Source: a virus. Taken from it: a DNA stretch of 49,466 nucleotides. The stretch spans positions 1 to 49,466 of IMG/VR virus record IMGVR_UViG_3300046453_000177; one strand, 5' to 3'. Each line of letters opens with the position of its first letter. The first letter of the stretch is position 1. The position numbers and the translations under genes are program-made. Under the pieces are notes generated by a model. The model was not told the origin of the DNA, did not search any database, and saw nothing but the letters and a program-made list of their open reading frames with translations. Positions 11,956 through 29,896 of this stretch are shown piece after piece.

Positions 11956-11964
11956 CTACGGACG
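11956..11964 (-). promoter_or_regulatory. Gene-boundary motif CGTCCGTAG, copy 1
   Basis: Reads CGTCCGTAG on the minus (coding) strand, 5 bp after the stop of the J-like gene and 33 bp before the next start. It is one of eight exact copies in the structural region, all in the coding orientation and all intergenic. Confidence 0.6.
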
Positions 11965-11969
11965 CCAGC

Positions 11970-14069
11970 CTATGCGGTGACTGTCACCAAGCCTGTCGCA
12001 TTCGCCGCAGAGCCGGTGCCGGATGCGTTGAATGCGCGGATGAAATAATACCACGCCCCCGCTGCAACGATGTCGGTGAAGTCCTGGCCCGCTCCCGCCG
12101 CAGATGGCAGGTCATCGCTGACCAGCGTCGCGCCGCTGATCGTGTTGGTCGAGTTGCGATAGACGCGGCTGTAGGCGAGATTCGAACTGCTGCCGTTCGT
12201 CCATGCCAGATCGGCTCGGAGCGATCCCCCTGTGCCGCTCGCGACGGTCGGAGGGGATGGGGCAAGGCTCGCCGTGGATGTGCTGACGACCACTATGGGC
12301 GACCATGGCGAAATACGCCCATCGCCCACGCCATAGGCTACCTCGACGTCGATGCCGACATTGAGCGGGACCAGGTTGGTGAGAAGCTGGACGGTCGGTC
12401 CGGGGTCGATGTCGGAATATTCCTGCTCGTTCCAAGTCGTGTCCGTCGTGACGCGCCAGCGGGCGTACCAGGTGATATCGTCGCGATCGTAGCCGTCCAC
12501 CGTGATGCGGATGCGGGCGGTTGTGCCGCCGTCGCCTAGTTCGGCGGTGGCTTCGGTTATTCCTGGGGTTGCAAGGGGCGCGGGGGCAATGCGGCCTTCT
12601 ACGGGTGCCGGTTCACCTTCTTCGGTCGCTGGGTTCCAAGTATCGATATTCGGTGAAACAGCGACCCAATCGAACGAAACGCCAAGGGTCTGCATGTCCC
12701 TTTCTGGGGAAGTGACGATTTCAGCCGCGCCGGTATAGAAGCTCGTGCCGACTTCGACGTGGTTAAGCCAAATGAAGCGCTCGCCCAACACGGACATGCC
12801 TTCATAATTCGTGGTGATCGTCCCTCGATCTGACGCGTTCTGGCGGGCCATGAAGCGCTTGGCTAACCGACGATTCTGAGAGTGGCTGGGCGTTTGCGGC
12901 GAAAAGTTTGTGCTGTTTACTTTACCGCGTTCGGCAATGTCATCCTCGTCGGTCCATGGCGTTGCATCCGGCTCGTTATAATCATGCTCGGCCGAAACAT
13001 AGGTGATGGCGATTTCATTGATAAAATCCTCATCCTCGACAAAGCCCTGGTGCCTGGCGTTGACGATCTGAGACGGACCAATCGTGACAGCTGGTTCGTA
13101 ATAGCGACCCGAATAGACGATATACCGGCCAAGTGCGTCCTCAGAATACCAGCCGTCGAATGTCTTGAGGAACTCATTAATGATGCCAGCCGGCTCGCCC
13201 GTCATATCGAAAAGGATGCAGCAGCGATAGCGGCGCTCAGACCCGCCGCCCTTTAGCGGGACCAGCTCATCGCAATGATCCGCTGCGGAAGTCCAATAAT
13301 CTATGACGGGCAATATCTGGGTGTCGTAATCAACACCGCGGTCGGTGATCAGATACCAGAGCAGGCCAAGCACCGGATTGTCGAGTAGTGGATCTGCCTT
13401 GACCCATGTGTCGGGGTCATAAGCATCCATGGTGAGGTCGCGAGGGTCGAACAGGTAGGACATGTCAAACACAGCCGACAGGATCGTGTTGTCGGCTTGC
13501 GGATATACTTCCAGATAGTTTTTGGCTTTAACCGGCTTTTTAATGAGATATCCGGAAGTAATGCCGTCCCCTCGATGGTCCGCAGTCCAAATGCCTGGCA
13601 GCGCTGAAATCACGGCCGGGAAGGCTGTTTCGGTGGCAAGGCCGAGATTGACCCCCGCCAGAACCTTCCCCGTCGCGTAAGCACCATCGGCAAGGCCCTG
13701 CACAACGCCCGCCGTGATCGTCACCTTATCATCGTTAAGATAGGCTTGGCGCATCGCGTGGGAGCGTCCCGACAGGAACGCCAGAACATCGACCGTTTCA
13801 CCGTTGTGGTTGGTGTCCCAAAGCATCGCCTTGCCATAGACGCGCCTCGTCCCAATACCCTTAGTGCGAACCGGGCGAGGCTCTTTTTTCTGCGTCTGAG
13901 CAGCTTCGGGCTTCGGCATGGAAGGGGCGAGAAGGAGCGCCACCGTGCTTGCGATAAGCATGTTGCCGCCCGCCAGCGCCAAACCTGGGTTGCCTGTCAC
14001 AACGCCAACGGTCAGCAGCGCCGCGCCGATGATTACGCCGACGAACTTACCCACGACGCCACACCGCAA
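11970..14069 (-). CDS. Tail-tip host-specificity protein (J-like)
   Basis: A protein of about 700 residues at the tail-tip position, downstream of an NlpC/P60-like gene. The N-terminus has two hydrophobic Gly-rich stretches (VGVIIGAALLTVGVV and MLIASTVALLLAP), then a conserved segment GIGTRRVYGKAMLWDTN. The middle has the central-tail-hub pattern GIINEFLKTFDGWYSEDALGRY. The C-terminal 180 residues are two fibronectin type III-like domains (ITWYARWRV, then AYSRVYRNSTNT). It recognises the host receptor with the fibres. The start is uncertain: TTG at 14069 or GTG at 14054, the latter overlapping the upstream stop by 8 bp. Confidence 0.75.
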   Translation of the reverse strand: MRCGVVGKFVGVIIGAALLTVGVVTGNPGLALAGGNMLIASTVALLLAPSMPKPEAAQTQKKEPRPVRTKGIGTRRVYGKAMLWDTNHNGETVDVLAFLSGRSHAMRQAYLNDDKVTITAGVVQGLADGAYATGKVLAGVNLGLATETAFPAVISALPGIWTADHRGDGITSGYLIKKPVKAKNYLEVYPQADNTILSAVFDMSYLFDPRDLTMDAYDPDTWVKADPLLDNPVLGLLWYLITDRGVDYDTQILPVIDYWTSAADHCDELVPLKGGGSERRYRCCILFDMTGEPAGIINEFLKTFDGWYSEDALGRYIVYSGRYYEPAVTIGPSQIVNARHQGFVEDEDFINEIAITYVSAEHDYNEPDATPWTDEDDIAERGKVNSTNFSPQTPSHSQNRRLAKRFMARQNASDRGTITTNYEGMSVLGERFIWLNHVEVGTSFYTGAAEIVTSPERDMQTLGVSFDWVAVSPNIDTWNPATEEGEPAPVEGRIAPAPLATPGITEATAELGDGGTTARIRITVDGYDRDDITWYARWRVTTDTTWNEQEYSDIDPGPTVQLLTNLVPLNVGIDVEVAYGVGDGRISPWSPIVVVSTSTASLAPSPPTVASGTGGSLRADLAWTNGSSSNLAYSRVYRNSTNTISGATLVSDDLPSAAGAGQDFTDIVAAGAWYYFIRAFNASGTGSAANATGLVTVTA

Positions 14070-14397
14070 TTACGTTGTCTTCCGGCAGGCGCACGAAGGC
14101 CAAGCCTTTGCTGGTCAAGAGCGCCCATTTGTCTCCGGTATAGATGCCGCCAATCTCGTCGGAGCCTTGCGGCGTAACCACATGCACGACGCCGATGTCG
14201 CCCGCTTCCGGCTCGATCACCAGAGCCAGCCTGTCACCGATCCAATCGCCCCAAATCTCAGACAGCGGGCGACCATGGGTGGAATAGTCGCACGGGAGTG
14301 GGATACCAGCCCAGCGCGCGGGCCATGCAGTGCAGTCATGCACGCCGTCTTTCCAAGGCGTCCGCGAACCTTCCAGCAGAAATTCGCCCAGCGTCAT
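14047..14397 (-). CDS. NlpC/P60-like tail protein (DUF6950 type)
   Basis: A 116-residue protein with RTPWKDGVHDCTAWPARW, in which HDC holds the putative nucleophile Cys, and GDIGVV plus WALLTSKGLAFV further on, as in the reduced NlpC/P60-like DUF6950 family that precedes J-like genes. The probable role is peptidoglycan cutting during DNA entry or tail-tip assembly. The C-terminal catalytic His is not obvious, so the enzyme may be degenerate. Confidence 0.65.
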   Translation of the reverse strand: MTLGEFLLEGSRTPWKDGVHDCTAWPARWAGIPLPCDYSTHGRPLSEIWGDWIGDRLALVIEPEAGDIGVVHVVTPQGSDEIGGIYTGDKWALLTSKGLAFVRLPEDNVIAVWRRG

Positions 14398-14951
14398 TTC
14401 GGGCCAAACCTGCGCGTCGTCCCGGCAGAAATGCCCGCAACGAAATCACAAAATCGATCGGTCGGCGACACCTTGGCCTGATCCGCCGCAGTGAAAAATG
14501 CTATCTTGGGATTGGCAAGCATGGTGTCGCCGCTCGCCATCGACAAGGACACTGTCCACTGTCTACCGGTTTCGCTCTCGACAGATTCGGAGATGATGAC
14601 CCCGCCGACGCCGGACCATTGCCACTTGATCGGGCCTTCCTGCTGCCAATCGCCATCGAATTTGACCAGTCCGATGTTGGCCTGCGCGCCCTTTACGCTT
14701 TCCCGGTCTTCATGCGCCATGCGCACCATCGCGGGCGTCACCCCAGAGAATTTAACCTCGATGCGGTCAGCCTCCCCATTGATGAGCTGCTTGAGCGTTG
14801 GCACCGAGACGAGTTCGGCCGCGCCTCGCCATACTGCACCGCTAGGATCAAGGCTGTCGGCGGCGGTGATCAATGGGCCATATCCGCTCCACAGATAGAC
14901 GGGCGGGTCGCAAAGGAGGCGAAACAGGATGGAAATGCGGTGCGAGGCCAT
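14394..14951 (-). CDS. Minor tail protein (185 aa)
   Basis: Placed between the tape measure and the NlpC-like gene. It begins with a segment typical of such proteins (VYLWSGYGPLI, then GAAELVSVPTLKQLINGEADRIEV) and continues as beta strands (GPIKWQWSGVGGVIISES). The layout tape measure, minor tail, NlpC-like, J-like matches the distal-tail set of lambda-like phages. It overlaps its downstream neighbour by ATGA. The enzymatic role is unknown; a structural tail-tip role is likely. Confidence 0.6.
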   Translation of the reverse strand: MASHRISILFRLLCDPPVYLWSGYGPLITAADSLDPSGAVWRGAAELVSVPTLKQLINGEADRIEVKFSGVTPAMVRMAHEDRESVKGAQANIGLVKFDGDWQQEGPIKWQWSGVGGVIISESVESETGRQWTVSLSMASGDTMLANPKIAFFTAADQAKVSPTDRFCDFVAGISAGTTRRFGPK

Positions 14952-17818
14952 TATCTGGTCCTGAACCGCTGCGCCCTGCGGACGGAACCGGGGGCATCCT
15001 TCATGGCCTGCTGGTAAGATGCGGCACCCGCACGCGCGGCGCTCTGATTGGAGATGCGCTCCATGTCGGCGTAAAGTTCGCGGGTGATGACCGCGCCTGC
15101 GAGGTTGAATTGGGGGGCGTTTATTACGGTTGGAGCGCTGTTGCCGCCGCGCAGGGCATGGTTCGGCACAATGACGCCCGCCTGCTGCGGCACGAACACC
15201 TCGCGTCCGTTCTCACCGACCTCATATGGAGTGCCTGCACGAACCGGCCCGCCGATTGCCCGGCCGCCACCGAAGAAGCTACCGACCGCAGTCCCGATTG
15301 ATTTGAACAACCCTCCCATGCCGCCGCCACTGCCCGACGCCTGCGACAACGCCTCAGTGATCGGCTTTATAAGCACGTCCTCTATCAGCATGTTGAGCAG
15401 GCCGCTGATCAGCGGGTCCTTGATCCCAAGCTGCTTCTCGATCCCGCTGCGGATGCTATCGCGCACCGATTCCAGCTCATCAACGACGTAGCCTTCGACC
15501 ATATCGCGTGTTTCGCCGGGATCACGGTCAAGGCGGCCACGGTATGCCTCAAGAGGTGACTGGTTCGACCGCCCTGCAACTGCGCGCCGCCCGTCATTGA
15601 TCTCGCCCAAGGTATCAAGGCCGATCTGGGCGCGCTTTCCTGCGGCTGAATTGGCGCCTTCCAGATCGATGATCGCCTGCAATTGCGCGCGCTGATATCG
15701 TTCTTCCAGATCTATGGAGGCGATCGCCAAGCGCTTTCGCTCAGCACTGCTGTCGGCCAGGTCATATTGGTTGCGGAGAATTTCTTGGTCGGCGCGGAAT
15801 CGCTCGTCAGCTGCGTCCTGCGCCTCTTGAGCAAGTTCTGCGTCCAGATCGCGTCCAATGCGCTGGCTGTAACGGCCTGGCGCAACGACAATATCATCCT
15901 CAGCGCCTTTGGCTCCATAAAGCCGGTCGATCGCTGCCAGCGCAGCCTTGCGCTGGGTGTCCGTCAAATCCTTGTCGGCCTTGATTTCGGCTACGCGCTG
16001 GGCGCGTTCCCCCGCAAGGATCTGTCGCTGTAGATCGGCGCGCGCTTCCGCCGTAATTGCGAGATCAAGGCGGGCCTGCAATTCCTCGACGCGCAGTCGT
16101 GACAGTTCGCGCTCCGCTGCTGTTGCGTCGGGGCCGTCCGGCTTGGATTTGCTGCCAGTCTTCTTTTTAGGGTCGTCGGCGGTGGGTGCAACGATGCGAG
16201 GTGCGGAAAGCCCATCAATGGTGGCGTTGATGCGCTTTATCTCATCCTCAGCCTTCTTCAGATTTTGCTCAGCGGCCCGGAGATTGGTCTGGGCTTGCCG
16301 ATTGGCTGTGTCGGTTCGCTGGCCGACTATATTGCCCCCAAGAATCATGCCTGATCCGGTAGAGACAGATTGCGCTCCCGATGATGCCGCAACGGCCCTA
16401 GCGTCTTGCGCTGCCTGCGAAGCCTTGGCTCGCGCGGCCGCTACTGCGGCTTTAGCGTTCGCGATGTATTGTTGGGTCTCCTGCTGAAGTGCCTTGGCAT
16501 TTGCCAAAGCCTCCACTCGCGCCTTGCCTGTAGCAGTAGCAACCGCCAAGGCTGCCGCCGCAGACTTGTCCTGAATCTTGGCCAAAACTTGCTGAGCTTT
16601 GGCGTACTGGCCAGACGCGTTAGCAGCGTCATCTGTTTTAAGTGCCAGATAAGCAATGCCCGCTGCCAACGCTAGGACTGCAACGCCCACAGGCCCACCA
16701 ACGGCGCCAAGCAAAATCCCACCGGCACGCGCTGCAACGCCTTGCGCTACAGCAAGGCCAGACACAGAGGCCGTCGCTAAGCGAGCGGCGGAAGCCTCGC
16801 CAAGCAAGGCTGCATTGGCTTGGTAGGTAGCGCTACTCAAGGCTTCGGCAGTAAGGGCCGCGCGAACATTTGCGGCCGCGAGAGCCGTCGAAGCCACAAC
16901 GGACGATCCGGCTGCGGCCACAAATCTAACGCCCATGACAGACGCAATCACCGCCAACGCACTGGACACGGTGTCGAGGTTGCTGCCCAAGCCCTGTAGA
17001 CCGGACGCTAGCGCGCCAGCAGCCCCACTACTAGAAGCAGCCGATCCCACGAACTCTATAAGGCGGTTGTTCAGGGATGTGTACGCGCCTTCTAGCGTGA
17101 GGGTTGCGGTCGCGGCTTTCTGCCCAACCACATCTGCTCCGGTTAGGATCGCTTGGAAAAATTCTTGCGACGATACCTTGCCATCATAGACGGCCTTGCG
17201 CAGTTTTTGGACGGACCCACCGTATTTCTCGGATGCCGCCGCAGCTTCCAGCAAGGGGCGAAGGCCGCCTTCATTGATCTGCGCCCATTCCTCTGCTTGC
17301 AGCTTGCCATTGCCGAAAGCCTGAACGAGGCCGAGGACGGCGCCGGATGCTTCCTGCGAACTTTTGCCGGTGACGATGAGGGACTGAGCCACAGCCTCAT
17401 TGATGCGCAAAACCTGCTGTTGAGTTGCGCCGAGTTCGCCGCTGACTTGTGAGAGGTTGCCGTACAGATCGGCCAGTGTGTTGACGCTGACGCCATATTT
17501 TCCGCCGAGATCAAGCAACTTGGCCTGAACGTCGGCCAGTGCCTCACCTTCAAGCCCGGCGACGCGCAGGCTATTTTGAAGGCGGGTATAGCTGTCTGAT
17601 AGACTGATAACCTGTTGTGCGCCGAACAATCCTGCGAGGGTTCGGAAAGCGGACCCGATCTTGCCCGATGAAAGGGCGATCTGACGTTCAAGTGCGACCA
17701 TCTGCCGCTGCTGCGCCTGCGTTACGCGCTCAAATATCGCAGCGGAACGGCGGAGGTCGGCCTCGTATTTGCCGACCTGAGCCTTGAACTCGACAATTAC
17801 TTCATCTGCTGTGGCCAT
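14951..17818 (-). CDS. Tail tape measure protein
   Basis: A 955-residue protein, the second-longest in the window. Residues about 60-260 contain the tape-measure domain (SLSDSYTRLQNSLRVAG, then NTLADLYGNLSQVSGELG and WAQINEGGLRPLLEAAAAS). There are hydrophobic and Ala-rich coiled stretches through the middle and a C-terminal GRAIGGPVRAGTPYEVGENG signature. It sets tail length, and at about 1.5 angstrom per residue predicts a tail near 140 nm. MATADEV at 17818 is chosen as start; an upstream reading to 17872 adds unrelated residues. The gene upstream runs on the plus strand, so this one needs its own promoter; a CGTCCGTAG element lies 33 bp upstream. Confidence 0.9.
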   Translation of the reverse strand: MATADEVIVEFKAQVGKYEADLRRSAAIFERVTQAQQRQMVALERQIALSSGKIGSAFRTLAGLFGAQQVISLSDSYTRLQNSLRVAGLEGEALADVQAKLLDLGGKYGVSVNTLADLYGNLSQVSGELGATQQQVLRINEAVAQSLIVTGKSSQEASGAVLGLVQAFGNGKLQAEEWAQINEGGLRPLLEAAAASEKYGGSVQKLRKAVYDGKVSSQEFFQAILTGADVVGQKAATATLTLEGAYTSLNNRLIEFVGSAASSSGAAGALASGLQGLGSNLDTVSSALAVIASVMGVRFVAAAGSSVVASTALAAANVRAALTAEALSSATYQANAALLGEASAARLATASVSGLAVAQGVAARAGGILLGAVGGPVGVAVLALAAGIAYLALKTDDAANASGQYAKAQQVLAKIQDKSAAAALAVATATGKARVEALANAKALQQETQQYIANAKAAVAAARAKASQAAQDARAVAASSGAQSVSTGSGMILGGNIVGQRTDTANRQAQTNLRAAEQNLKKAEDEIKRINATIDGLSAPRIVAPTADDPKKKTGSKSKPDGPDATAAERELSRLRVEELQARLDLAITAEARADLQRQILAGERAQRVAEIKADKDLTDTQRKAALAAIDRLYGAKGAEDDIVVAPGRYSQRIGRDLDAELAQEAQDAADERFRADQEILRNQYDLADSSAERKRLAIASIDLEERYQRAQLQAIIDLEGANSAAGKRAQIGLDTLGEINDGRRAVAGRSNQSPLEAYRGRLDRDPGETRDMVEGYVVDELESVRDSIRSGIEKQLGIKDPLISGLLNMLIEDVLIKPITEALSQASGSGGGMGGLFKSIGTAVGSFFGGGRAIGGPVRAGTPYEVGENGREVFVPQQAGVIVPNHALRGGNSAPTVINAPQFNLAGAVITRELYADMERISNQSAARAGAASYQQAMKDAPGSVRRAQRFRTR

Positions 17819-17850
17819 GATATTGAATGGCCACGCCGGTTCTCCATATG

Positions 17851-17859
17851 CTACGGACG
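17851..17859 (-). promoter_or_regulatory. Gene-boundary motif CGTCCGTAG, copy 2
   Basis: Lies in the divergent gap between the tape measure gene and the plus-strand gene at 17884, 33 bp upstream of the tape-measure start. This is the clearest site where a promoter role is needed. Confidence 0.6.
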
Positions 17860-17883
17860 GTGACGCAACCAAGGGGGGTTAAA

Positions 17884-18200: not shown

Positions 18201-18908
18201 TTAGGCGGCGCGCGCCACCGGCTGAAATTCTTTCGCGAGGCGGGTCAGGCCCTTGGCAGTCACGCGGACCTGCGTGGTCGTCTTTTCCGATCCATCAGTG
18301 CGGGTGACGACAGTGGTCTTGTGCTCCAGCAATCCCTGCTGGAGTTTGGCCTGATAGGCGATTTTCACGCCATCGCCCTGGCGCGTATATATCCAGTGAT
18401 GCGCGTGGAGGAACTGGAACAGCGCCTTTGGCTGGACCTGTAGCGTCTTTGCGGCATCAGTGATGCAGAGCGAGCCGTCCGAAATGGCGATGCGCTCCAA
18501 CGCCTGCACTTGCGGGCGCATTTCCTCGATCTCGCCCTGCAACTCGATCTGCTTTTCAGCATAGACCAGCAGCAGGCCACGCATCGACGCCGGATCATTC
18601 AGCATCATCACCGGATCGAAAGCCGGACGCGCTTCAAGCTCCTGCCAACGATCAATGATTCGGGCGCGCATGTGGACGTCATAGCCGGAAACGAGAATGA
18701 GGCTTTCGCGCTTGGGTAAGCAAAATTCAGCCGTGTAGCCGCGCGCATCTTTGATCTCGTGGACATGGCCCAAATCTGGGCCATCCCCCAAGGCCCCTAT
18801 CATCACGCGAATGTCACGAATGACGTGCTTATGTTCCTTGCCGGTCAGTTCCGCGATGTCGCGGCTGCTCATGGTCTGCTCACTGGTAGATGAAACAAGC
18901 TCGTTCAT
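18201..18908 (-). CDS. Rha family / KilAC-domain antirepressor
   Basis: A 235-residue regulator. Residues 13-110 form the Rha domain (MSSRDIAELTGKEHKHVIRD, with ESLILVSGYDVHMRARIIDRW). A coiled link (QIELQGEIEEMRPQVQALERI) follows. Residues about 140-230 form the KilAC/ANT domain (ITDAAKTLQVQPKALFQFL, then VRVTAKGLTRLAKEF). Such proteins counter the repressor or tune lytic development by binding DNA or repressor. It is embedded in the tail module, far from the repressor, with a 214-bp leader carrying hairpins and one CGTCCGTAG element. Confidence 0.85.
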   Translation of the reverse strand: MNELVSSTSEQTMSSRDIAELTGKEHKHVIRDIRVMIGALGDGPDLGHVHEIKDARGYTAEFCLPKRESLILVSGYDVHMRARIIDRWQELEARPAFDPVMMLNDPASMRGLLLVYAEKQIELQGEIEEMRPQVQALERIAISDGSLCITDAAKTLQVQPKALFQFLHAHHWIYTRQGDGVKIAYQAKLQQGLLEHKTTVVTRTDGSEKTTTQVRVTAKGLTRLAKEFQPVARAA

Positions 18909-19096: not shown

Positions 19097-19105
19097 CTAC
19101 GGACG
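19097..19105 (-). promoter_or_regulatory. Gene-boundary motif CGTCCGTAG, copy 3
   Basis: Eighteen bp after the stop of the 138-aa gene, and 190 bp upstream of the Rha start. This is the longest motif-to-start distance of the eight. Confidence 0.6.
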
Positions 19106-19122: not shown

Positions 19123-19539
19123 TCAGGCAGCTAGTCGGATTGCGTCGGCCTCGACCAGTTCAAAGACATTTTCCGTGCCTTTGAACCGGTGCAACTCCTC
19201 CTCATTGATCAGGTCGATTTTGAAACGGAGCGCAGCAAAGTCCGGCGCGGCGATAGATACGAGAAGCTGAGCGGCTTCCAGCGCCGGGTCGCGATATGTG
19301 TTCCAGTATTTCTCGTTTTCGGCTTCATACCGGAGGCTTTCTTTGGAGAAAGCGTCATGACCGGCAGTCCCGGCCTTCACGCCCTCCCGCTTACCGAATT
19401 CCCGCTCCAGAATAATGTTGTTGAGCGTGTTCTCGTATTCAATCCGATCGCCAGGGCCGAATTTTTCAGCGGCTTCGCGGATCATGGACGCGGCAGTCCA
19501 AGCGGCAACGGCGCGATCCCATGCGGTGCGGTCGGTCAT
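19123..19539 (-). CDS. Hypothetical helical protein (138 aa)
   Basis: A helical, acidic protein: TAWDRAVAAWTAASMIREAA at the start, and PALEAAQLLVSIAAPDFAAL then FKIDLINEEEL later. The late block (APD-x2-AL-x2-KIDLI) is shared by small hypotheticals I associate with sphingomonad genomes and phages; no function is known. The start is joined by TAATG to the 37-residue gene upstream. Confidence 0.6.
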   Translation of the reverse strand: MTDRTAWDRAVAAWTAASMIREAAEKFGPGDRIEYENTLNNIILEREFGKREGVKAGTAGHDAFSKESLRYEAENEKYWNTYRDPALEAAQLLVSIAAPDFAALRFKIDLINEEELHRFKGTENVFELVEADAIRLAA

Positions 19540-19652
19540 TATGCAGCCCTCCGTGCGTCAGCGACGGGAGGCGTCGGCAGATCGTTATCGTTGGCAATGA
19601 TAATGCGGCGCTTCACATGGGGCGCGGCGAAGGGTATGACATTCGAAGCCAT
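19539..19652 (-). CDS. Very short gene, 37 aa
   Basis: Encodes MASNVIPFAAPHVKRR then IIIANDNDLP and a Pro/Ala tail. GGAG lies 8 bp before the ATG, and the stop forms a TAATG overlap with the next gene, so it is probably translated and coupled. Small VxPF...RRI proteins of this type occur in alphaproteobacteria. Function unknown. Confidence 0.55.
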   Translation of the reverse strand: MASNVIPFAAPHVKRRIIIANDNDLPTPPVADARRAA

Positions 19653-19720
19653 GATCGTCTCCATAGGACGGTTAGCGGTTAGGGCGGTTTGGGAAGGTGA
19701 GATTTCCCTTGCCGCCCGGC

Positions 19721-19764
19721 CTTTATGTGCTCATAAAGGTGTCATGTCAATACTAAATGAGCAC
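19721..19764. promoter_or_regulatory. Operator-like inverted repeats over a ribbon-helix-helix gene start
   Basis: CTTTATG and CATAAAG (19721-19738, 4-bp gap) form a perfect palindrome 5 bp before the ATG. Overlapping it, GTGCTCAT (19727-19734) is repeated inverted as ATGAGCAC (19757-19764) inside the gene. This suggests cooperative autoregulation. Confidence 0.55.
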
Positions 19765-19923
19765 AAAAAGAAAATGGGCCGTCCACCTGTCGATAGCGAG
19801 CTTGTGCGCGCCCGCATTCAACAGCCCTTGCTTGGCCAGCTTGACGCTTACGCCGATAGCGCAGGCATTCCGCGTTCCGAAGCAATCCGACGCCTAGTTG
19901 AAAAGGGGTTAGAATCGGAATAG
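19744..19923 (+). CDS. Ribbon-helix-helix DNA-binding protein (59 aa)
   Basis: After a basic arm (NEHKKKMGRPPVDSELV) the protein has a short strand RIQQPLLGQLDAYA and two helices, SAGIPRSEAIRRLVEKGLE, the CopG/Arc-type fold. It starts directly behind a palindrome, so it probably represses itself. It is transcribed against the surrounding structural genes with the lipoprotein gene 29 bp downstream, suggesting a two-gene cargo operon. An antitoxin role is possible, but no toxin partner is recognised. Confidence 0.7.
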   Translation: MSILNEHKKKMGRPPVDSELVRARIQQPLLGQLDAYADSAGIPRSEAIRRLVEKGLESE

Positions 19924-21350: not shown

Positions 21351-21404
21351 AGCCTCGATCCTCAATGAGATTTGGCTGACTTTGGTGGTGCGGGAGAAAG
21401 GCCG

Positions 21405-21413
21405 CTACGGACG
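21405..21413 (-). promoter_or_regulatory. Gene-boundary motif CGTCCGTAG, copy 4
   Basis: Begins 1 bp after the TAG stop of the tail-terminator gene; the tail-tube start follows 54 bp on. Tail-tube protein is needed in large amounts. Confidence 0.6.
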
Positions 21414-21414: not shown

Positions 21415-21819
21415 CTAAAGCTGCTCGATCGCGGTGTAGGTGAATTGCACGAAGCCGTGCCAGCTATCCGCCTCATCACCCTGGATCATCTGGGTCCGAT
21501 CAACGTAGCAGTCGGGCATGGCATCCAAAGCGTCAGCGATCGCGGCGATTGCGCTTTCGGCGTAGGCCTTGGGGTCTGGGATGTCGGACGCCTTGTTCAC
21601 AAAGACATGGTATGAACTGGACACCTCACCCCCGCTCCAGCAAGAGGCGCGCACAGGTTCGGCCATTTCCACGCCGTACCGCCCGAACGGCTTGATCGGG
21701 CTTGTCGGCGTCTGTGAAGGGTACAGCCGCGCAGCTGGTATCTTCGACGTGACAGCTTGCGATGTCTTAATGGCGACCAAAACCGCCGATCGCGCTTCAA
21801 CCGTGGGGCTGATCGTCAT
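21415..21819 (-). CDS. Tail terminator (DUF3168 family)
   Basis: A 134-residue protein: ARSAVLVAIKTSQAVTSKIP, then FGRYGVEMAEPVRASCWSG, the GEVSSSYHVFVNKASDIPDP loop and final WHGFVQFTYTAIEQL. This follows the HK97 gp10 / DUF3168 plan, capping the tail tube and joining it to the connector. It overlaps its upstream neighbour by ATGA. Confidence 0.75.
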   Translation of the reverse strand: MTISPTVEARSAVLVAIKTSQAVTSKIPAARLYPSQTPTSPIKPFGRYGVEMAEPVRASCWSGGEVSSSYHVFVNKASDIPDPKAYAESAIAAIADALDAMPDCYVDRTQMIQGDEADSWHGFVQFTYTAIEQL

Positions 21820-22133
21820 TGTCCGGTGCCAGGAACGACGGAAATACCATCGCTTCCCCCAACATCATCATGATCTGCCAATTCGATTCGGGATGCGTTG
21901 ATTCGACGCGCGTCAGTATCGCGTCCATCCATTGGCCCAGAATGTTGACGTCGAGACGCTTCCCCATCGCTGGGAACCTTAGCTGATCGCTCCACCTCTG
22001 TCGCCTTGCCTTTGGCTATAGCGGCATCGCTGACTTCACGCTTCACCGTGCCGGACCATCCAGCCTTGTAGGCGGTGATCGCGCGGGACGGCCAGCGGTG
22101 ATCATAGTCGGCGGAGAAAATGATTTTTGGCAT
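21816..22133 (-). CDS. Hypothetical head-tail region protein (105 aa)
   Basis: The N-terminal 50 residues read IIFSADYDHRWPSRAITAYK then AGWSGTVKREVSDAAIAKGKA, a small domain I associate with alphaproteobacterial phages (a tyrosine/lysine-rich beta-hairpin followed by a helix ending GKA). The C-terminal half is low-complexity, charged and Ser/Asp-rich, and looks disordered. The role is unknown; position suggests a head-tail joining factor. A CGTCCGTAG element precedes it. Confidence 0.55.
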   Translation of the reverse strand: MPKIIFSADYDHRWPSRAITAYKAGWSGTVKREVSDAAIAKGKATEVERSAKVPSDGEASRRQHSGPMDGRDTDARRINASRIELADHDDVGGSDGISVVPGTGQ

Positions 22134-22164: not shown

Positions 22165-22173
22165 CTACGGACG
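22165..22173 (-). promoter_or_regulatory. Gene-boundary motif CGTCCGTAG, copy 5
   Basis: One bp after the TAG stop of the HK97 gp10-like gene and 32 bp before the next start. Confidence 0.6.
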
Positions 22174-23748: not shown

Positions 23749-24762
23749 TTACACTCCGTCAACGAGGGTGATGGCCTTCGGAATGCGGTTTTCGTAGCCG
23801 CCGATGTTCATCAGGCCCGGCACCTCCCAAGAGAACGGACCCTTCTGGTAGGGCTGGCTGCTGAACAGCTGATGGCCGCCACCGGGGAGGTGGAATTGAT
23901 GCACCTCGCGCGTGTTCGAATAGGCGATCATGCGCTTGGTCGAACCGGCGCCGGCGGTTTCCAGATGGCGCGACTTCTTGATGGTCAGCCCGGAAATCAC
24001 CGAATTTTCCTGCAAATAGCGCAGAAGCGACATGCCGGTGTCGGTCACGCGACGCGACGCCATCGAGTTATAGACGGAGGTTGGCACCGCAAGGGTGTCG
24101 GCCTGGTACGTCTCGCCGGTGTTGGTTTCGACCGACGTCAGCGCATCGTTGACGACCGCCACCGCCTGATCGGGGGTGCCGGTTGCAATGGCCTGCGCGG
24201 CGGTCGTCTGGGTCGCGAGCGGATTGTTGATGAAGCCGGTCGTGAACTTCAACCCATCACCGCGCATGGCGGTCTTGTGGATGAAGCGTTCGGCGGTCTT
24301 GGATGCCGCGTCCGACTTCTCCGCGAGGACGTTCTGACCGAGCTGCTGCGCCCGCTCCAGATCCATGCGGTTCCACTTGTAGCCGATCCCGGCCATGTGG
24401 TTTTCCTGGAGGAACTGCGTCCGGCTGACATCGGCGTAGGGCATATCGTCGGCCGCCACGTCGAACCATTCCGGCTTGCCCGCGATATCGCCCGAATAGA
24501 AGATCGAGCCAGCGGACCAGATGGTCCCCTGCGTGTCGATCGGCATGAACTCGGCATAGTCGGCGAGCGGGTAGCGCACCATGTAGGTGCCTTGCTCCAC
24601 GCGCATCAGCTGCGGGACGAGGAAAGCCATCGACTGCTGAGCATCGTTCAGGTCGATGTTGCGGATGCCATCCACGAAGCTGACACCGGGGCATTCGGGA
24701 TTTGCATCCAGATATGCCACCGCCGCCATGACGGAATCGAAAATCATTTTGGTCATTTTCAA
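23749..24762 (-). CDS. Major capsid protein (DUF2184, HK97 fold)
   Basis: 337 residues. ARG-free N-terminus (FDSVMAAVAYLDANPECPGV) followed by MAFLVPQLMRVEQGTYMVRY, GTIWSAGSIFYSGDIAGKPE, and the C-terminal HLPGGGHQLFSSQPYQKGPF with WEVPGLMNIGGYENRIPK. This is the DUF2184/encapsulin-like capsid family, with a short N-arm. The missing delta domain is supplied by the fused scaffold of the 25233-26333 gene. The start is either 24762 or MTKMIF at 24756. Confidence 0.85.
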   Translation of the reverse strand: MKMTKMIFDSVMAAVAYLDANPECPGVSFVDGIRNIDLNDAQQSMAFLVPQLMRVEQGTYMVRYPLADYAEFMPIDTQGTIWSAGSIFYSGDIAGKPEWFDVAADDMPYADVSRTQFLQENHMAGIGYKWNRMDLERAQQLGQNVLAEKSDAASKTAERFIHKTAMRGDGLKFTTGFINNPLATQTTAAQAIATGTPDQAVAVVNDALTSVETNTGETYQADTLAVPTSVYNSMASRRVTDTGMSLLRYLQENSVISGLTIKKSRHLETAGAGSTKRMIAYSNTREVHQFHLPGGGHQLFSSQPYQKGPFSWEVPGLMNIGGYENRIPKAITLVDGV

Positions 24763-24770
24763 GCTGCCCC

Positions 24771-25220
24771 TCAGCGACGCACGATGCGGACCAGGCCCGC
24801 AGCGGCAATGGTGTCATCAAATTCCCACCCGGCCGCCGCGACGTTGCTGGTCGAGACGTTGGTAATGAGGCCGCCCGGGGTCACATAAACCGGGTCGCCA
24901 TCAGCGACTGCGACGGCTGCGTTGACCCAGATTTTACCGCGGTTCTTGATGCGGAGATTATCCTTGGCGATGTAGGTGTCTGCGGCCCGATCGCTGGTGA
25001 CCGGAAGGCTGCGGTTGGCAATGGTGAAGCCGTACAGCGTGCCAGCAGCAGGCGTAACGGAAGCGCCTCGATCTGCGACGCCGCGGTAAACAGCCTTGCC
25101 GAAGCCAACGCTCGCGGATTCCAGCGAACGAGTAATGATATTGGAGGTTTCGCCGTCCGCTTCCATGCCAGCATAGCCGGAAGGAATGTCCTCAACGAAA
25201 GTGCTTTGAAGAACTGCCAT
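24771..25220 (-). CDS. Capsid decoration / cement protein (DUF2190-like)
   Basis: 149 residues in a beta-tulip pattern: VEDIPSGYAGMEADGETSNI, VGFGKAVYRGVADRGASV, and GDPVYVTPGGLITN, ending AAAGLVRIVRR. This is the trimeric cement protein that stabilises the expanded capsid. It lies between scaffold and capsid genes, 8 bp from the capsid start. The C-terminus, with the VTSDRAADTYIAKDNLRIKN loop, is where host tags often appear in relatives. Confidence 0.75.
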   Translation of the reverse strand: MAVLQSTFVEDIPSGYAGMEADGETSNIITRSLESASVGFGKAVYRGVADRGASVTPAAGTLYGFTIANRSLPVTSDRAADTYIAKDNLRIKNRGKIWVNAAVAVADGDPVYVTPGGLITNVSTSNVAAAGWEFDDTIAAAGLVRIVRR

Positions 25221-25232
25221 TGTCGTGACTCC

Positions 25233-25784
25233 TTATGCCGCGTTGGCGTTGCGGTGGGCGTTCTGCTTGTCGGCAAGCCAGGTGGCGCGCGCGGTGGCGA
25301 TGCCGGCGGCGCTGTCGGTGACAGGGCGGATGCCATCGCGGATCGTCTCGCGCAGCGGGTCAGGTGCCTTCGCGTCCTTGGTGAAAGCGATGAAAGCGCC
25401 CTCAATCGCAGCGTCCGCCATATCCTTGGCGGCATCACCCAGCTTGGCAGTCACAGCCTCCTTGCGGATTTCCGCGTCGCTCTTGCCATCGGTGACGATT
25501 GCGGGGGCCAGCGTCTTGGCCTTGCCGATGATATCGGCGCGGGCATCGGCAAGCATCTGGAGCTTGGCGGGGGTGACTTCGGCGTCCTTCAGCTTCTGCG
25601 TCAGGGCGGCGATCTCACCATCCTTGGTCTGAACAGCGGTCGTCGCGGTTGCCAGTTCGGCGGTCAGCGTTCCGACCTTACCCTGCGCGTCGGCAAGGGT
25701 GGCATTGAGGGTTCCGACCGCGAGGGCAACCGCCGCGCCGTCGCTCAGGTCAACGTCTTTGGCGTCGCCAATCGTGATCTTCAT
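25233..25784 (-). CDS. Nested in-frame scaffold protein (183 aa)
   Basis: The in-frame ATG at 25784 (MKITIGDAKDVDLSDG) has AGGAGA 6-11 bp before it, far better than most starts in this phage. It lies exactly at the protease-scaffold junction (codon 184). A separate scaffold would start here, as lambda Nu3 does within gene C. The product would be mostly coiled coil. Confidence 0.6.
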   Translation of the reverse strand: MKITIGDAKDVDLSDGAAVALAVGTLNATLADAQGKVGTLTAELATATTAVQTKDGEIAALTQKLKDAEVTPAKLQMLADARADIIGKAKTLAPAIVTDGKSDAEIRKEAVTAKLGDAAKDMADAAIEGAFIAFTKDAKAPDPLRETIRDGIRPVTDSAAGIATARATWLADKQNAHRNANAA

Positions 25785-26333
25785 GGGCTTCTCCTGGGGG
25801 ATTATGCGCTCGTCCACGATGCGCAATTCGGAGCCGCCACGCGCCGCGCGACAAGCTGCCAAATGGTTGTATTCAAGGTCGGTGAGAGAGGCGTCGTAAG
25901 CCTGCCCCTGATATTCGCCGGGGGTCATGTCCATGTCAGCGACATAGCCCCACGAAAATTCCTGATGCGTGGTAGCCAGCGCACGCACGGCGTCGGCATC
26001 GGTCACGCGAAACGGGATGCGCATCTTCTCGCCGTCGCGCATCACCTCATCGCCGGTGAAGCCGCGCGCCAGCTCGCGATAGTTGGTGGCGTTCACCGCC
26101 TGCTTGGGGTGATCCAGCGTGATCGGCACGCGAGCGGCGGAATCTAGCGCCTTTTTGCCGAACACAACGCTTTCAGGGCGGAACACACGCAGATCGCGGT
26201 CTATGCCCTCCAGTTCACCCTTGCGATAAAGCTGAATGTTGTTCGCGCGCGCCGTGTAGGCGTCGGCTACAAGGTAGCCTTCCTTTGTGATCGTGGCTGT
26301 GCCAGCCATAGGGACGCGATCGAACAATTGCAT
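25233..26333 (-). CDS. Prohead protease / scaffold fusion (DUF2213)
   Basis: 366 residues. Residues 1-170 form the DUF2213 protease: ALDSAARVPITLDHPK holds the catalytic-type His, followed by FSWGYVADMDMTPGEYQGQ and YDASLTDLEYNHLAACRAAR (SxxE-like region). Residues 185 onward form the scaffold: an Asp/Ala-rich part, then a coiled coil (ATLADAQGKVGTLTAELATA). The protease frees the scaffold during maturation. Start MQLFDRV at 26333 is preferred; an ATG at 26351 is also possible. A CGTCCGTAG element lies 33 bp upstream of 26333. Confidence 0.8.
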   Translation of the reverse strand: MQLFDRVPMAGTATITKEGYLVADAYTARANNIQLYRKGELEGIDRDLRVFRPESVVFGKKALDSAARVPITLDHPKQAVNATNYRELARGFTGDEVMRDGEKMRIPFRVTDADAVRALATTHQEFSWGYVADMDMTPGEYQGQAYDASLTDLEYNHLAACRAARGGSELRIVDERIIPQEKPMKITIGDAKDVDLSDGAAVALAVGTLNATLADAQGKVGTLTAELATATTAVQTKDGEIAALTQKLKDAEVTPAKLQMLADARADIIGKAKTLAPAIVTDGKSDAEIRKEAVTAKLGDAAKDMADAAIEGAFIAFTKDAKAPDPLRETIRDGIRPVTDSAAGIATARATWLADKQNAHRNANAA

Positions 26334-26366
26334 GGGGCTTGTCTGCCCCACGGCTTCGGGTAGGCT

Positions 26367-26375
26367 CTACGGACG
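26367..26375 (-). promoter_or_regulatory. Gene-boundary motif CGTCCGTAG, copy 6
   Basis: Thirteen bp after the stop of the HTH gene and 33 bp upstream of the protease start at 26333. Confidence 0.6.
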
Positions 26376-26388
26376 GTAGAAGGAAGGC

Positions 26389-26547
26389 TTATCCGGCAAG
26401 CCTGCGGATGCTCTCGATCTTGACCAATCGGCGCCCGCCAACGCGAACCGCCTCTATGCGACCCTCTGCAATCCAATTGTAAACCGTGGCGCGGGAAACT
26501 CCGATCGCCTTGCCAGCGTCAGCAATCGAGCAAAATATGGGTTCCAT
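26389..26547 (-). CDS. Excisionase-like HTH protein in the head module
   Basis: 52 residues from MEPIFCSIADAGKAIGVS, with RATVYNWIAEGRIEAVRVGG and KIESIRRLAG: a textbook MerR/HTH_17 domain, as in excisionases. AGGAGA before the ATG at 26547 supports the start. It is placed between the Mu-F head protein and protease genes, where such a regulator is not expected. Its upstream region holds two direct repeats. It may control local genes or act as a second recombination directionality factor; 48226-48600 encodes another Xis-like protein. Confidence 0.75.
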   Translation of the reverse strand: MEPIFCSIADAGKAIGVSRATVYNWIAEGRIEAVRVGGRRLVKIESIRRLAG

Positions 26548-26607
26548 GTCATTCTCCTTGTGGGAGACTTTGAGCATGGCTGGTTATGGCTGGACAGGGT
26601 ACACGCT

Positions 26608-26645
26608 CCGGATCGCGTACCGGTATTTGGACCGGATGTCGTACC
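26608..26645. repeat. Two 14-bp direct repeats before the HTH gene
   Basis: CCGGATCGCGTACC (26608-26621) and CCGGATGTCGTACC (26632-26645) differ at two positions and are 24 bp apart, about two helical turns. They lie upstream of the HTH gene and may be its binding sites. Confidence 0.5.
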
Positions 26646-27497
26646 CTATTCGATCTCTTCTAAGAGGGCGATATAGGCTTGCTCGCGACACCCGCACCAA
26701 GGTTGGACGCCTGCCCGCTGATCTGGAGAAAGGTCGCCACCTTCACCCCGCACAATCTTGCCAGATCGCAACTGGTAAAGGTTGCCCTCCCTCGCCTTGT
26801 GGTTCTGGCGTGGGTGAAGTTTACCGCTATGCCTCCATTTGACGAGTTCGATCCCAGCTTCGGCCTGCCGTTCCTTATCAAGCGCGGCCGATAGCTTGCT
26901 GTTCTGGTCGGCGGCGATTCCGATGGCTCGCGTCCGTCCCATGCCGGTAGCCTCGCGGATTTCCTTGGCCACTTCGCGCGGCGGCGTCCGGTTCTGGTAG
27001 CCGCGAAACACGGCGTCGGAAATGCGGCCCTGTGCCTGGTCGGAAATGTTGCGGACCAGCGCCACATTCCGCGCCATGAACGCCCCAAGCGTCTCCTGCG
27101 CGGCATCAGCCTGCAACACCATTTCGATGTCCACCCCGGCGCCCGCCTTGATCGCTGCGGCCCATTTGGAGCGGTGGATGCGCTCTGCTCGCACCACCCA
27201 TGCGCGCAGCCCCGGCGTGATGGTCGTGACAAGCCGCGTCAGAAACTCATTCGCCACGCTTTCGATGGCTGCGGTGATCTGGTCGGGGCTGTCGAGGACC
27301 AGCGCGTCAGCAACCGGCAGCGGGGCAGGGTTGTAGCCCGCCATGATGCGGTCGATGTTCTCGGCCCATATGCGCCAGGCCGGGGCGATGATGGCGGCTA
27401 GATCGATGGCTTGGGCGTCGGTTGGGATGATTGGGCGCAGTAGGACGTTGCGACGCTTGCCTGCTGCTCTGGCAAGGCTGGGGAGGGAGTAGGGCAT
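26646..27497 (-). CDS. Minor head protein, Mu gpF-like
   Basis: 283 residues from MPYSLPSLARAAGKRRN. The C-terminal core shows the Mu-F signature: ISDAVFRGYQNRTPPREVAKEI, then KEIREATGMGRTRAIGIAAD, KWRHSGKLHPRQNHKAREGN and QPWCGCREQAY. These proteins sit at the portal vertex and take part in head morphogenesis or DNA ejection. It follows the portal gene with one small membrane gene between them. Confidence 0.85.
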   Translation of the reverse strand: MPYSLPSLARAAGKRRNVLLRPIIPTDAQAIDLAAIIAPAWRIWAENIDRIMAGYNPAPLPVADALVLDSPDQITAAIESVANEFLTRLVTTITPGLRAWVVRAERIHRSKWAAAIKAGAGVDIEMVLQADAAQETLGAFMARNVALVRNISDQAQGRISDAVFRGYQNRTPPREVAKEIREATGMGRTRAIGIAADQNSKLSAALDKERQAEAGIELVKWRHSGKLHPRQNHKAREGNLYQLRSGKIVRGEGGDLSPDQRAGVQPWCGCREQAYIALLEEIE

Positions 27498-27498
27498 G

Positions 27499-27660
27499 TC
27501 ACCGAGTCTTGACCGGTGGAGGCGGCGCTCCGGGTGGCGGCGCGGGCGGTGCCTTGGGCCGATAAACGCCATATCCACCGCGCTGCCGTGGCGTGCCGCT
27601 GTCCGAGATGATCAGGGCTGCGATTATGATCACGATGGCAAGGATGGCGCAGTCGGTCAT
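27499..27660 (-). CDS. Small membrane protein, proline-rich tail (53 aa)
   Basis: A single hydrophobic segment (AILAIVIIIAALIISDSG) is followed by YRPKAPPAPPPGAPPPPVKTR, a poly-proline tail. The start at 27660 overlaps the portal stop by ATGA, and the stop is one base before the next ATG. Such a gene between portal and head protein is unusual. Its topology resembles small phage membrane peptides that cross-link to cell-envelope proteins, but the function is unknown. Confidence 0.6.
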   Translation of the reverse strand: MTDCAILAIVIIIAALIISDSGTPRQRGGYGVYRPKAPPAPPPGAPPPPVKTR

Positions 27661-29519
27661 GGCCGGATCTCCTCGAAAATCTCCGGCCCCAGCACAATCT
27701 TTCCGGTGTAAGGCTTGACCATCGCCAGATCGATGTCCCCGCCAACCTGAATGGAGATGTGCGGCTGATATTCCGGCCAATCGAACGACGCGCCCTTGTC
27801 TCGCATGTCCTGATTGCGGCTGATCAGCTCATAGGCGGTGAACAGGAGCGCCTTGTATTTGCCATCGGGGCCAAGTGCTTCGACCAGACGAGGGCCGCCT
27901 GCCTCGATCTCCAGCTTGCCACGCCAGGACTCGCCCATGGCCATCCAGTCAACCGGGGTGCGGCTGTAGGTGATCGTGACATGCAGATCCGGCGCGATGT
28001 CGGTGAAGCCCTGCGATTCCGCCCACTTCACGATGTCGGCGCGGTTGATGACGTCGCGGCGGACATAGAGCGGTTTTGCGGCCCAATCCTCCAGCATCCA
28101 TGCATCATTCGCAGCCATGGCACGGCGGGCGGGACGCGCGGCCCCGCCACTACCGGCAGATGCAAGATCACCTTCCTTTCCGCTGCTCTCATATCCGAGG
28201 GGCACGATCCCCAGTTCGGATTCGTCAACCTTGTCGGGCAGTTCCTCGCCCTTCTTCTCAGCCTCTTCGATCAGCTTCTTGAGGCCGGGGAAGCGCCCGC
28301 TCTCGATCAAGCGGTTCTGGATCGTCTTGGCCATGGCGCTTTCAGGAACCATCGCGAGCGAGACCAGCTTTTCGAGGGCCTGGGCTTCCTTGAGTTCGAT
28401 GTCAGCTTCATCCTTTTCGGAGAGCGACGCTAGGCCAGAGAATTTCCATGACAAATCGGCCGGCACGCCAGCGGATGGCAGGACGTAGGCGTCAATTCTC
28501 TCTATGTTGGGGCGGAGCTGCATATCCTGCTTGGCGGCGATGGTGTCTCGATAGCCCTTGTCGTCGCCTTCGCCTGTAGAGTTCATGCCATCCGGCGACT
28601 TCCCGAACAGTTTGGTCGCGGGCATTTCCGCCGCCCCGGCCAGGCGCCCGTCAAATGTAATGATGACGTCGCGCACACCGGCCAGCGATAACTGGCGTTG
28701 CTCCCACTCATCCTCCGCGTCCATAACAGCGGCGCGGTGGGCACTCTTGCCCTGCTGCGTCACCTCGATACGCTTCATGACCTTTTCGTCACCGCCAGGC
28801 TGCAACAGCGTCTCGGCCAGCCCCTTGAAGCGGTAGACGTCAACCTTCGCCTCTTCGATCAGCGATGCAAAACCAGCACATGCCGCGGTCGCCTGCTGGA
28901 CCGGTTCGTCAACCGCTTCCACGATCGACATGCCCCAGAAGCGATCTTCCCACGTCGCGGTGCGGATCGCTGGAATGGGCAAGCCCTTGAAGCATACGAC
29001 GCGCGAAGGGTGGATCTGGATTTGCCGCAACGTGCCGGACAGGCCGAACGTCTTGGGCTGGCGGAAGTTTTCGGACTGCGGGTCTTGCTCGATCTCACCA
29101 AGCGTCAGCTCGTAGCGCGACAGGACAGTGAGGTAGCGGATTTGCTGCGGGCGGATGTTGGTCGGAGCTGGCTGGCTGGGGTCGCTGTCACCGAACCCGA
29201 TAACGATCGCGCCACCACCCAAACGGCCAAGGGTTAGCGCTTCATACAGCTTCGGCCAGTATCCAAGCCGCCTTTCCTCTTTCTCGATCGCAGCGATCTG
29301 GTCGTCTTCGGCATCCCAATCGCGACCGGCGCGGGTCATGTCCTGCGCTGGGATGTCCACGATCTTGCGATGCAGCCAGGAGCCGAGATAGGCGGCTTCA
29401 ATCTGCGAAGGGTCTTGAAAGCGGCGCATCCACACATTGTGGACGGAGCGGTCAACGGTCGTGCCGCGACCTGTGAGGACATTAGCCAGTCCATCGAATA
29501 GGCGCGTGACGGTTCCCAT
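27657..29519 (-). CDS. Portal protein fused to Acb1-like 2H phosphodiesterase
   Basis: 620 residues. The first 430 are a DUF1073 portal: FQDPSQIEAAYLGSWLHRKI, IDIPAQDM-type segment, LGRLGGGAIVIGFGDSDPSQ, then RFWGMSIVEAVDEPVQQATA and LAGAAEMPATKLFGKSPDGMN. The last 150 hold two H-x-T/S motifs, DLHVTITYS (His513) and YQPHISI (His587), 74 residues apart, as in 2H phosphoesterases. DUF1073 portals are known partners of Acb1, which cuts the cyclic nucleotides used by CBASS immunity. Residues 440-475 are a flexible linker (SSGKEGDLASAGSGGAAR). Confidence 0.85.
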   Translation of the reverse strand: MGTVTRLFDGLANVLTGRGTTVDRSVHNVWMRRFQDPSQIEAAYLGSWLHRKIVDIPAQDMTRAGRDWDAEDDQIAAIEKEERRLGYWPKLYEALTLGRLGGGAIVIGFGDSDPSQPAPTNIRPQQIRYLTVLSRYELTLGEIEQDPQSENFRQPKTFGLSGTLRQIQIHPSRVVCFKGLPIPAIRTATWEDRFWGMSIVEAVDEPVQQATAACAGFASLIEEAKVDVYRFKGLAETLLQPGGDEKVMKRIEVTQQGKSAHRAAVMDAEDEWEQRQLSLAGVRDVIITFDGRLAGAAEMPATKLFGKSPDGMNSTGEGDDKGYRDTIAAKQDMQLRPNIERIDAYVLPSAGVPADLSWKFSGLASLSEKDEADIELKEAQALEKLVSLAMVPESAMAKTIQNRLIESGRFPGLKKLIEEAEKKGEELPDKVDESELGIVPLGYESSGKEGDLASAGSGGAARPARRAMAANDAWMLEDWAAKPLYVRRDVINRADIVKWAESQGFTDIAPDLHVTITYSRTPVDWMAMGESWRGKLEIEAGGPRLVEALGPDGKYKALLFTAYELISRNQDMRDKGASFDWPEYQPHISIQVGGDIDLAMVKPYTGKIVLGPEIFEEIRP

Positions 29520-29552
29520 GCTTGTGACGGTGGGGCGGGCGGGGCGTGATCG

Positions 29553-29561
29553 CTACGGACG
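29553..29561 (-). promoter_or_regulatory. Gene-boundary motif CGTCCGTAG, copy 7
   Basis: Lies between an intrinsic terminator (29572-29598) and the portal start, 33 bp upstream of it. Transcription past the terminator could restart here. Confidence 0.6.
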
Positions 29562-29571
29562 CTAGACGTAG

Positions 29572-29598
29572 AAAAGGGCGGCCATTGCTGACCGCCCC
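29572..29598 (-). terminator. Intrinsic terminator upstream of the portal gene
   Basis: On the minus strand GGGCGGTC and GGCCGCCC pair (one G-U) over a 6-nt loop, followed by four U. It is 23 bp after the stop of the 63-aa gene. Confidence 0.7.
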
Positions 29599-29620
29599 TA
29601 TTATTTTCTCAGCCCTGGCG

Positions 29621-29812
29621 TCAGGCCAGGCCAGCTCGCTTCGATGCCAGCGGCGAACGCGGATGGCCATTATCCAGCACGAAAAGAGGCTTGTCGCTGA
29701 TGAAGTCAGGTAGCAGATTCAGGGTGAAATCTACCGCTCGGTCAACGAGGGCCGATGCGAACGATAGCGCCGCGATGCAGGCCAGACTGATGATTGCGAA
29801 CATTCGTTTCAT
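29621..29812 (-). CDS. Small secreted or membrane protein (63 aa)
   Basis: The N-terminus (MKRMFAIISLACIAALSFASA) is a signal peptide or membrane anchor. The rest (LVDRAVDFTLNLLPDFISD and a basic C-terminus) has no known family. GGAG precedes the ATG at 29812. Sitting between terminase and portal and bounded by a CGTCCGTAG element and a terminator, it has its own transcription cassette, the look of a moron in the same orientation as the structural genes. There is no Cys for lipidation after the segment. Confidence 0.55.
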   Translation of the reverse strand: MKRMFAIISLACIAALSFASALVDRAVDFTLNLLPDFISDKPLFVLDNGHPRSPLASKRAGLA

Positions 29813-29887
29813 TGGAGTTCTCCTATTCCGCGGTGGGAAGTGATCGATCACGGAACCTGAAAAATGCCGCACGCCTACCGGCTTGGG

Positions 29888-29896
29888 CTACGGACG
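29888..29896 (-). promoter_or_regulatory. Gene-boundary motif CGTCCGTAG, copy 8
   Basis: Directly abuts the TAG stop of the terminase large subunit gene. The next start (29812) is 75 bp further on. Confidence 0.6.

Follow-up and report, generated by a model that had tools for sequence, protein, structure and literature searches.

What is a 9-bp sequence, CGTCCGTAG, doing at eight gene borders of a single phage late operon? The window analyzed here is the whole of IMG/VR record IMGVR_UViG_3300046453_000177 (49,466 nt), a temperate siphophage carrying genes for an integrase, RecE/RecT, a CI-like repressor, terminase, portal, head, tail, and tape measure proteins. An earlier note had listed eight intergenic copies in a single orientation, expected the 9-mer well under once per strand, and found no copies in other regions by eye; exact searches and gene calls agreed on each point. 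With copies counted on both strands and gene borders taken from our own gene caller, CGTCCGTAG occurred eight times on the minus strand, which encodes the late operon, and never on the plus strand, compared to a shuffle expectation of 0.21 (0 of 100 shuffles reached eight). All eight copies were intergenic and none lay outside the late operon, while allowing one mismatch added just three more window sites, the level expected by chance. As set out below, CGTCCGTAG very probably forms the upstream part of a two-part late promoter.

Two details of the earlier note required adjustment. A TAG within 0 to 5 bp was indeed found at five copies, but the one at 29553 is not the stop of a gene, since the small open reading frame (ORF) upstream ends in a TGA located before it. 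TAG is frequent near the copies because the extended box, CTRS-CGTCCGTAG-MG, starts with CTAG or CTGG, and CTAG can supply the stop codon of the upstream gene. Four copies had been described as beginning 32 to 34 bp before a start codon; it is the end of the motif, not its beginning, that lies 32 to 33 nt before ATG at 11956, 17851, 26367, and 29553, with 31 nt at 22165.

To place the repeat in related phages, the portal protein was searched against IMG/VR, returning 15 loci at 48 to 90% identity, 12 of which carried the same 9-mer. Nine whole records held 44 copies, 43 of them in late-gene orientation, and the sole reversed copy (G008) preceded that record's own reversed tail genes. Further records were added by pattern scans, giving 106 distinct copies in about 30 related phage records; a few of these are probably chance matches, for instance a copy within a G007 ORF and two antisense copies, in G010 and in G020. 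Collection-wide scans for the box plus ATG returned mostly single chance matches in unrelated genomes, hence only clusters of copies were used. Comparison of orthologs placed the box, in every relative, before the genes for portal, protease, major tail protein, tail tube or tape measure, and distal tail, whereas an ortholog-by-ortholog check of the CGTCCGTAG phages never placed it before the terminase small (TerS) or large (TerL) subunit, head morphogenesis, or major capsid protein genes. The portal box had an orthologous copy in relatives whose region upstream of portal is present. Rhizobium phage RHph_TM3_3_3, with a 9-nt gap before portal, has no room for a box. Copies before orthologous genes share descent, and their counts are not independent trials. 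In the 5.6-Mb genome of Sphingomonas sp. Root720 (G042), six of 17 copies fell on one strand of a single 22-kb prophage block at C1:98143-120478 and 11 were scattered, and box plus ATG occurred at about chance level across 299 genomes of its family. Equal density in host DNA or inside genes, or a lack of conservation in relatives, had been named as grounds for dismissing the motif; the prophage clustering in Root720 and the conserved orthologous positions point the other way.

The position of the box relative to start codons and a second element carries the promoter interpretation. In 68 of the 106 distinct copies the motif was followed by ATG at a distance of exactly 32 or 33 nt, compared to a background of 1.8% per position. 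In both spacing classes the strongest six-column block of the spacer started at -12 from ATG (0 of 500 shuffles), corresponding to a sigma-70-like -10 hexamer at -12 to -7, and nonredundant ATG-anchored copies had A at -11 (38/57), T at -7 (32/57), and C at -1 (52/57). A 6-bp discriminator is also what was mapped in Zymomonas mobilis, where TANNNN is followed by 6 bp (PMC7566282). The box spans about -42 to -33 relative to the start, leaving a gap of about 20 to 21 nt to the -10 element, longer than the usual 17. No canonical -35 was seen, with TTG at -37 to -33 in 0 of 68 copies, and TTGACA/TATAAT-type sites were not in excess. Shine-Dalgarno (SD) sequences preceded only three of the 68 motif-ATG genes; among 507 control genes the share was 55% when judged at the called start and 64% when any nearby start was allowed, with an SD-like sequence in 19% of random 20-mers as the baseline. 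At the level of sequence, these data establish a bipartite element of fixed geometry, conserved in diverged phages and accompanied by SD loss.

A second class of 13 nonredundant copies, almost all of them preceding the gene for the major tail protein, separated the contribution of the box from that of the start codon. Here, ATG mostly lay 52 to 59 nt past the box, about 21 nt further than in the +32/33 class, behind an SD, and yet A at box +21 (13/13), T at box +25 (13/13), and A at +32 (10/13) were retained. Since the spacing from box to block is kept though ATG moves, the second block belongs to the box and not to the start codon. With the block locked to the box, the transcription start site (TSS) would have a set position near +32/33, and leaderless mRNAs are expected for most virion genes, an output that we consider probable.

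Taken together, the explanation we favor, with a probability of about 0.78, combines a late promoter box, a sigma-70-family -10 element, mostly leaderless virion mRNAs, and a helix-turn-helix (HTH)-like activator. The extended box would take the place of the -35 element, slightly overlapping its position, and box and -10 would together set transcription to start 32 to 33 nt downstream of the box, presumably by host sigma-70 RNA polymerase. For portal, protease, tape measure/tail tube, and distal tail, the start would coincide with the A of ATG, yielding a leaderless mRNA for which SD is not needed; in the case of the major tail protein, starting at that position would leave a leader of about 21 nt that contains an SD. 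The HTH-like protein would bind the box and substitute for the -35 contact. Promoters every few kb within one operon may boost single virion genes, and may also restart transcription past terminators or inserted opposite-strand genes. The earlier note had argued that a promoter or anti-termination element was needed after an opposite-strand gene and after a terminator, and the promoter reading is now well supported.

The eight window boxes follow this organization with differing fidelity (Table 1). The 29553 copy lies just past the intrinsic terminator that closes the inserted 63-aa ORF, and the extra copies in the window go with insertions, either this ORF (29888, then 29553) or opposite-strand genes (19097 and 17851). 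At the major tail protein box, the predicted TSS is the A near 21372, giving a leadered mRNA. The weakest -10 among the eight is that of the 22165 copy. The 63-aa ORF itself, encoded on the minus strand between TerL and portal, has a hydrophobic N terminus, its own SD, and its own box and terminator, resembling a self-contained, moron-like inserted gene.

Table 1. Proposed promoter boxes and candidate activator gene in the window
Feature	Coordinates	Strand	Context
Box, 63-aa inserted ORF	29888..29896	-	Directly 3' of TerL stop; -10 candidate CATTTT 29861-29866; predicted to drive ORF 29621-29812
Box, portal	29553..29561	-	ATG 29519, 33 nt past box; -10-like CACCGT 29527-29532; no SD
Box, head maturation protease	26367..26375	-	ATG 26333, 33 nt past box; -10-like CAGACA 26340-26345; no SD
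Box, small tail/neck-region ORF	22165..22173	-	ORF 21816-22133; ATG 31 nt past box; short GAGGT before ATG
Box, major tail protein	21405..21413	-	ATG 21350, 54 nt past box; -10-like CAAAGT 21379-21384
Box, upstream of antirepressor-like gene	19097..19105	-	Gene 18201-18908; box after opposite-strand gene 19189-19923 (+)
Box, tape measure	17851..17859	-	ATG 17818, 32 nt past box; -10-like CCATTC 17825-17830; no SD; after small opposite-strand ORF
Box, distal-tail-type gene	11956..11964	-	Gene 11240-11923; ATG 11923, 32 nt past box; -10-like CATCGT 11930-11935; no SD
Candidate late activator, 72-aa ORF	31863..32081	-	Immediately upstream of terminase small subunit; HTH-like, orphan family

The 72-aa HTH-like ORF, which lies beside terminase as late regulators usually do, was examined as the protein that may read the box. 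Its AlphaFold model showed three helices arranged like an HTH (pLDDT, the model's confidence score, 79). Neither this ORF nor a longer version that adds a C-terminal domain matched Pfam, PHROGs, or PDB by sequence, or any entry by fold. Homologs were encoded in 18 of 18 CGTCCGTAG records covering that region, a count that is not circular because those phages were found via portal or motif, and it was the only nonvirion window gene present in all 12 of 12 near-complete relatives. Records sampled with a single, chance copy lacked the ORF, except the fragment G037, a true relative. On this correlative evidence, the HTH-like protein is somewhat more likely than not to be the activator. A second candidate, ORF 32074-32682, was rejected as the regulator, being present in just 12 of 18 motif phages; it encodes, on the minus strand, a conserved protein of about 180 aa directly upstream of the HTH-like ORF, with shorter forms in some of the variant phages described next.

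Diverged homologs of the HTH-like ORF were also found in phages with other box spellings. Searched with the HTH-like alignment, 299 genomes of the Root720 family gave 10 matches and 399 genomes of its order gave 14; among 385 genomes drawn class-wide, Root720 alone matched. De novo k-mer searches downstream of these homologs recovered CGGCGGTAA in G116, G289, G858, and G865, CGACGGTAA in G187, and CGGCGGCAA in G897; CGGCGGTAA in G847 was added by inspection and CGTCGGTAA in G287 by repeat count. All retained the same gene order and spacing. Together, the variant boxes numbered 54 forward and one reverse, with ATG at 32/33 in 30, only two of which had an SD, and their -10 was an ordinary TAnnnn-like element without T at -7. 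TGA often directly preceded or overlapped the variant box, again frequently as a stop codon. These phages were selected for having the HTH-like ORF, and its co-occurrence with a box in 8 of 8 is therefore circular. The published isolate Synechococcus phage Ssp-JY40 (PP438430.1) carried an HTH-like gene beside terminase and CGGCGGGAA 32 nt before portal, 33 nt before protease, and 32 nt before a tail-region gene. Comparative sequence thus documents co-variation of the motif between lineages. Since the layout persists across phages of a single host order and the spelling changes, the simplest reading is that recognition is encoded by the phage. Whether these proteins make up a new family of small phage late activators, with no sequence relationship to known activators, that reads a 9- to 15-bp box in place of -35, has diverged in specificity, and yields mostly leaderless virion mRNAs is, in our estimate, evenly balanced; the same estimate covers the proposed range of specificities, comprising CGTCCGTAG, CGTCGGTAA, CGGCGGTAA, CGACGGTAA, and CGGCGGCAA in phages of Sphingomonadales and CGGCGGGAA in their relatives.

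Two observations accompany the variant phages. Unlike the window, some CGGCGGTAA phages had an extra box before terS, with ATG 31 to 32 nt away and an SD (G116, locus L361, position 713; G858 region, L368/L369, position 494 in late orientation). Synechococcus phages Ssp-JY40 (L387; 63% GC) and Yong-M3-232 have portal and HTH-like proteins in common with sphingomonad prophages; the recorded host may deserve checking.

Several results weigh against the proposed promoter and activator. The -10 element is a degenerate match, most markedly so in the protease copies. In Mantel tests, motif difference correlated more strongly with portal distance (r 0.71) than with HTH distance (r 0.39 to 0.43), and the partial correlation of motif with recognition helix given portal was 0.24; the link between motif and HTH-like protein is thus confounded by phage relatedness. 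Two quite different recognition helices, YGARNDLVRKW and FGLHWQTERRC, both accompanied CGTCCGTAG. An HTH-like ORF occurred with just one motif copy in G190, and HTH matches in G089, G882, G943, G920, G937, G231, and G054 had no repeated motif alongside them and at most a limited related late region. Separately, CGGCGGTAA had been predicted in G882, G943, and G937 from an NWR-type or similar helix; this prediction failed, and tblastn of window proteins found no related late region in these genomes.

The strongest competitor to an activator working with host sigma-70 is an alternative sigma factor, of phage or host, or a split-sigma protein resembling sigma region 4, that reads the box itself. 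Replacement of -35 by the box would fit such a factor, as would a candidate protein about one HTH domain in size, and T at -7 is conserved in CGTCCGTAG copies (32/57 and, in the leadered class, 13/13), in contrast to the housekeeping -10 elements of Zymomonas and Caulobacter, which have no conserved T at this position (PMC7566282). Against it, no sigma-like protein was detected by Pfam among the early-region ORFs scanned, the variant phages show no T at -7, and the gap from box to -10 exceeds the usual spacing, making this alternative unlikely. Two established promoter classes were rejected: the sigma-54 signature TGGCACG-N4-TTGC at -24/-12 is absent from invariant CGTCCGTAG and from variants such as CGGCGGTAA, and the invariant box lacks GGAAC, the -35 consensus of EcfG (general stress) promoters.

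The fixed distance to ATG and the scarcity of SD in most copies could also arise from an element acting in RNA, a translation enhancer or processing site in a 5' leader that replaces SD. The major tail class, which changes its ATG distance and keeps its box-to-(-10) spacing, argues against this, as do the lack of a structure signal in RNA around the box (mean z -0.17) and one copy that precedes a tRNA gene rather than an ORF; we regard an RNA element as very improbable. The earlier note's suggestion of a stoperator-like operator, by which the prophage repressor would silence the late operon, draws on the many same-orientation copies, as in the L5 stoperators, but is extremely improbable: every copy is coupled to a -10 block and a start, without need of a repressor, and the motif is common to phages lacking the same CI-like repressor (the window repressor was found in 1 of 21 records compared). 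Scarcely any probability likewise attaches to a lambdoid-type boundary sequence for module exchange, for although copies lie at gene borders with inserted genes between them (the 63-aa ORF, the antirepressor, and opposite-strand genes), spacing to the second element is constrained and whole lineages replace the letters and keep the layout; recombination at box copies may occur as a by-product.

Comparison with known systems placed the proposed promoter apart from each. Start-associated sequences of cluster K mycobacteriophages, another parallel drawn in the earlier note, are repeated intergenic sequences at a fixed position before starts, but those sequences adjoin the start and contain the ribosome binding site, whereas the present box is SD-free, stands 32 to 33 nt from the start, and in the major tail class has no fixed ATG distance. 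Middle and late messages of Thermus phage P23-45 are reportedly leaderless. Its middle and late promoters similarly are temporal phage promoters without a -35, yet belong to an extended -10 class with Gp39 and no comparable box (PMC7403470). In T4 middle promoters, a phage-specific box replaces -35 with the sigma-70 -10 retained, as proposed here, but the MotA box is centered near -30 compared to near -38 for the present box (PMC6755090); T4 also needs AsiA, the genes here are late virion genes with mostly leaderless output, and no sequence similarity was seen. The early-region ORFs scanned had no Pfam match to MotA or AsiA, and the candidate structure had no PDB match. The GafA and GafY/GafZ activators of gene transfer agents in Rhodobacter and Caulobacter also switch on alphaproteobacterial phage-type structural clusters from promoters with a degenerate -35 (PMC6363796, PMC11150451), but these systems rely chiefly on a single cluster promoter, with IHF and a long leader that puts the gtaT start codon at +251, in contrast to the many short intra-operon promoters here. 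Leaderless mRNAs themselves are established in alphaproteobacteria, with 375 in Caulobacter (PMC4117421) and 119 in Zymomonas (PMC7566282), and host ribosomes translate them; the distance of 6 bp from -10 to TSS is as in Zymomonas, and what differs here is a dedicated phage promoter that would make most virion mRNAs leaderless. Alongside leaderless mRNAs, a tRNA gene with a CAT anticodon, initiator-like by eye, may be of interest: it lies about 37 nt past a box copy in G003 (C1:24749-24825; L030 4749-4825), as if transcribed from a late promoter. Two other relatives also encode tRNA-Met, on the opposite strand.

How phages of Sphingomonadales, an abundant bacterial order, control their late genes is essentially undescribed in the searchable open-licence literature, in which no description of the motif was found, although absence there is weak evidence. 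A leaderless virion program on a dedicated phage promoter is unusual and, if the new-activator interpretation is true, separates late translation from SD initiation. Motif and HTH-like ORF together offer a way to recognize such phages, correct their start codons, and locate virion genes; motif spellings paired with HTH sequences provide a test bed for changes in the DNA specificity of small activators; and leaderless-output promoters could be put to use as tools in Sphingomonas.

Two further features of the window were noted. Inverted 25-nt arms with 84% identity, at 39088-39112 and 41230-41254, contain GTGTCGAAACAC and TGTGTCCTAACACA and, lying near the CI-like repressor gene (39037-39906), are candidate repressor operators. 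On the minus strand, 34724-34966 encodes a phage GapR-like DNA-binding protein (Pfam PF10073, E 7e-35) that was present in 6 of 21 related records compared.

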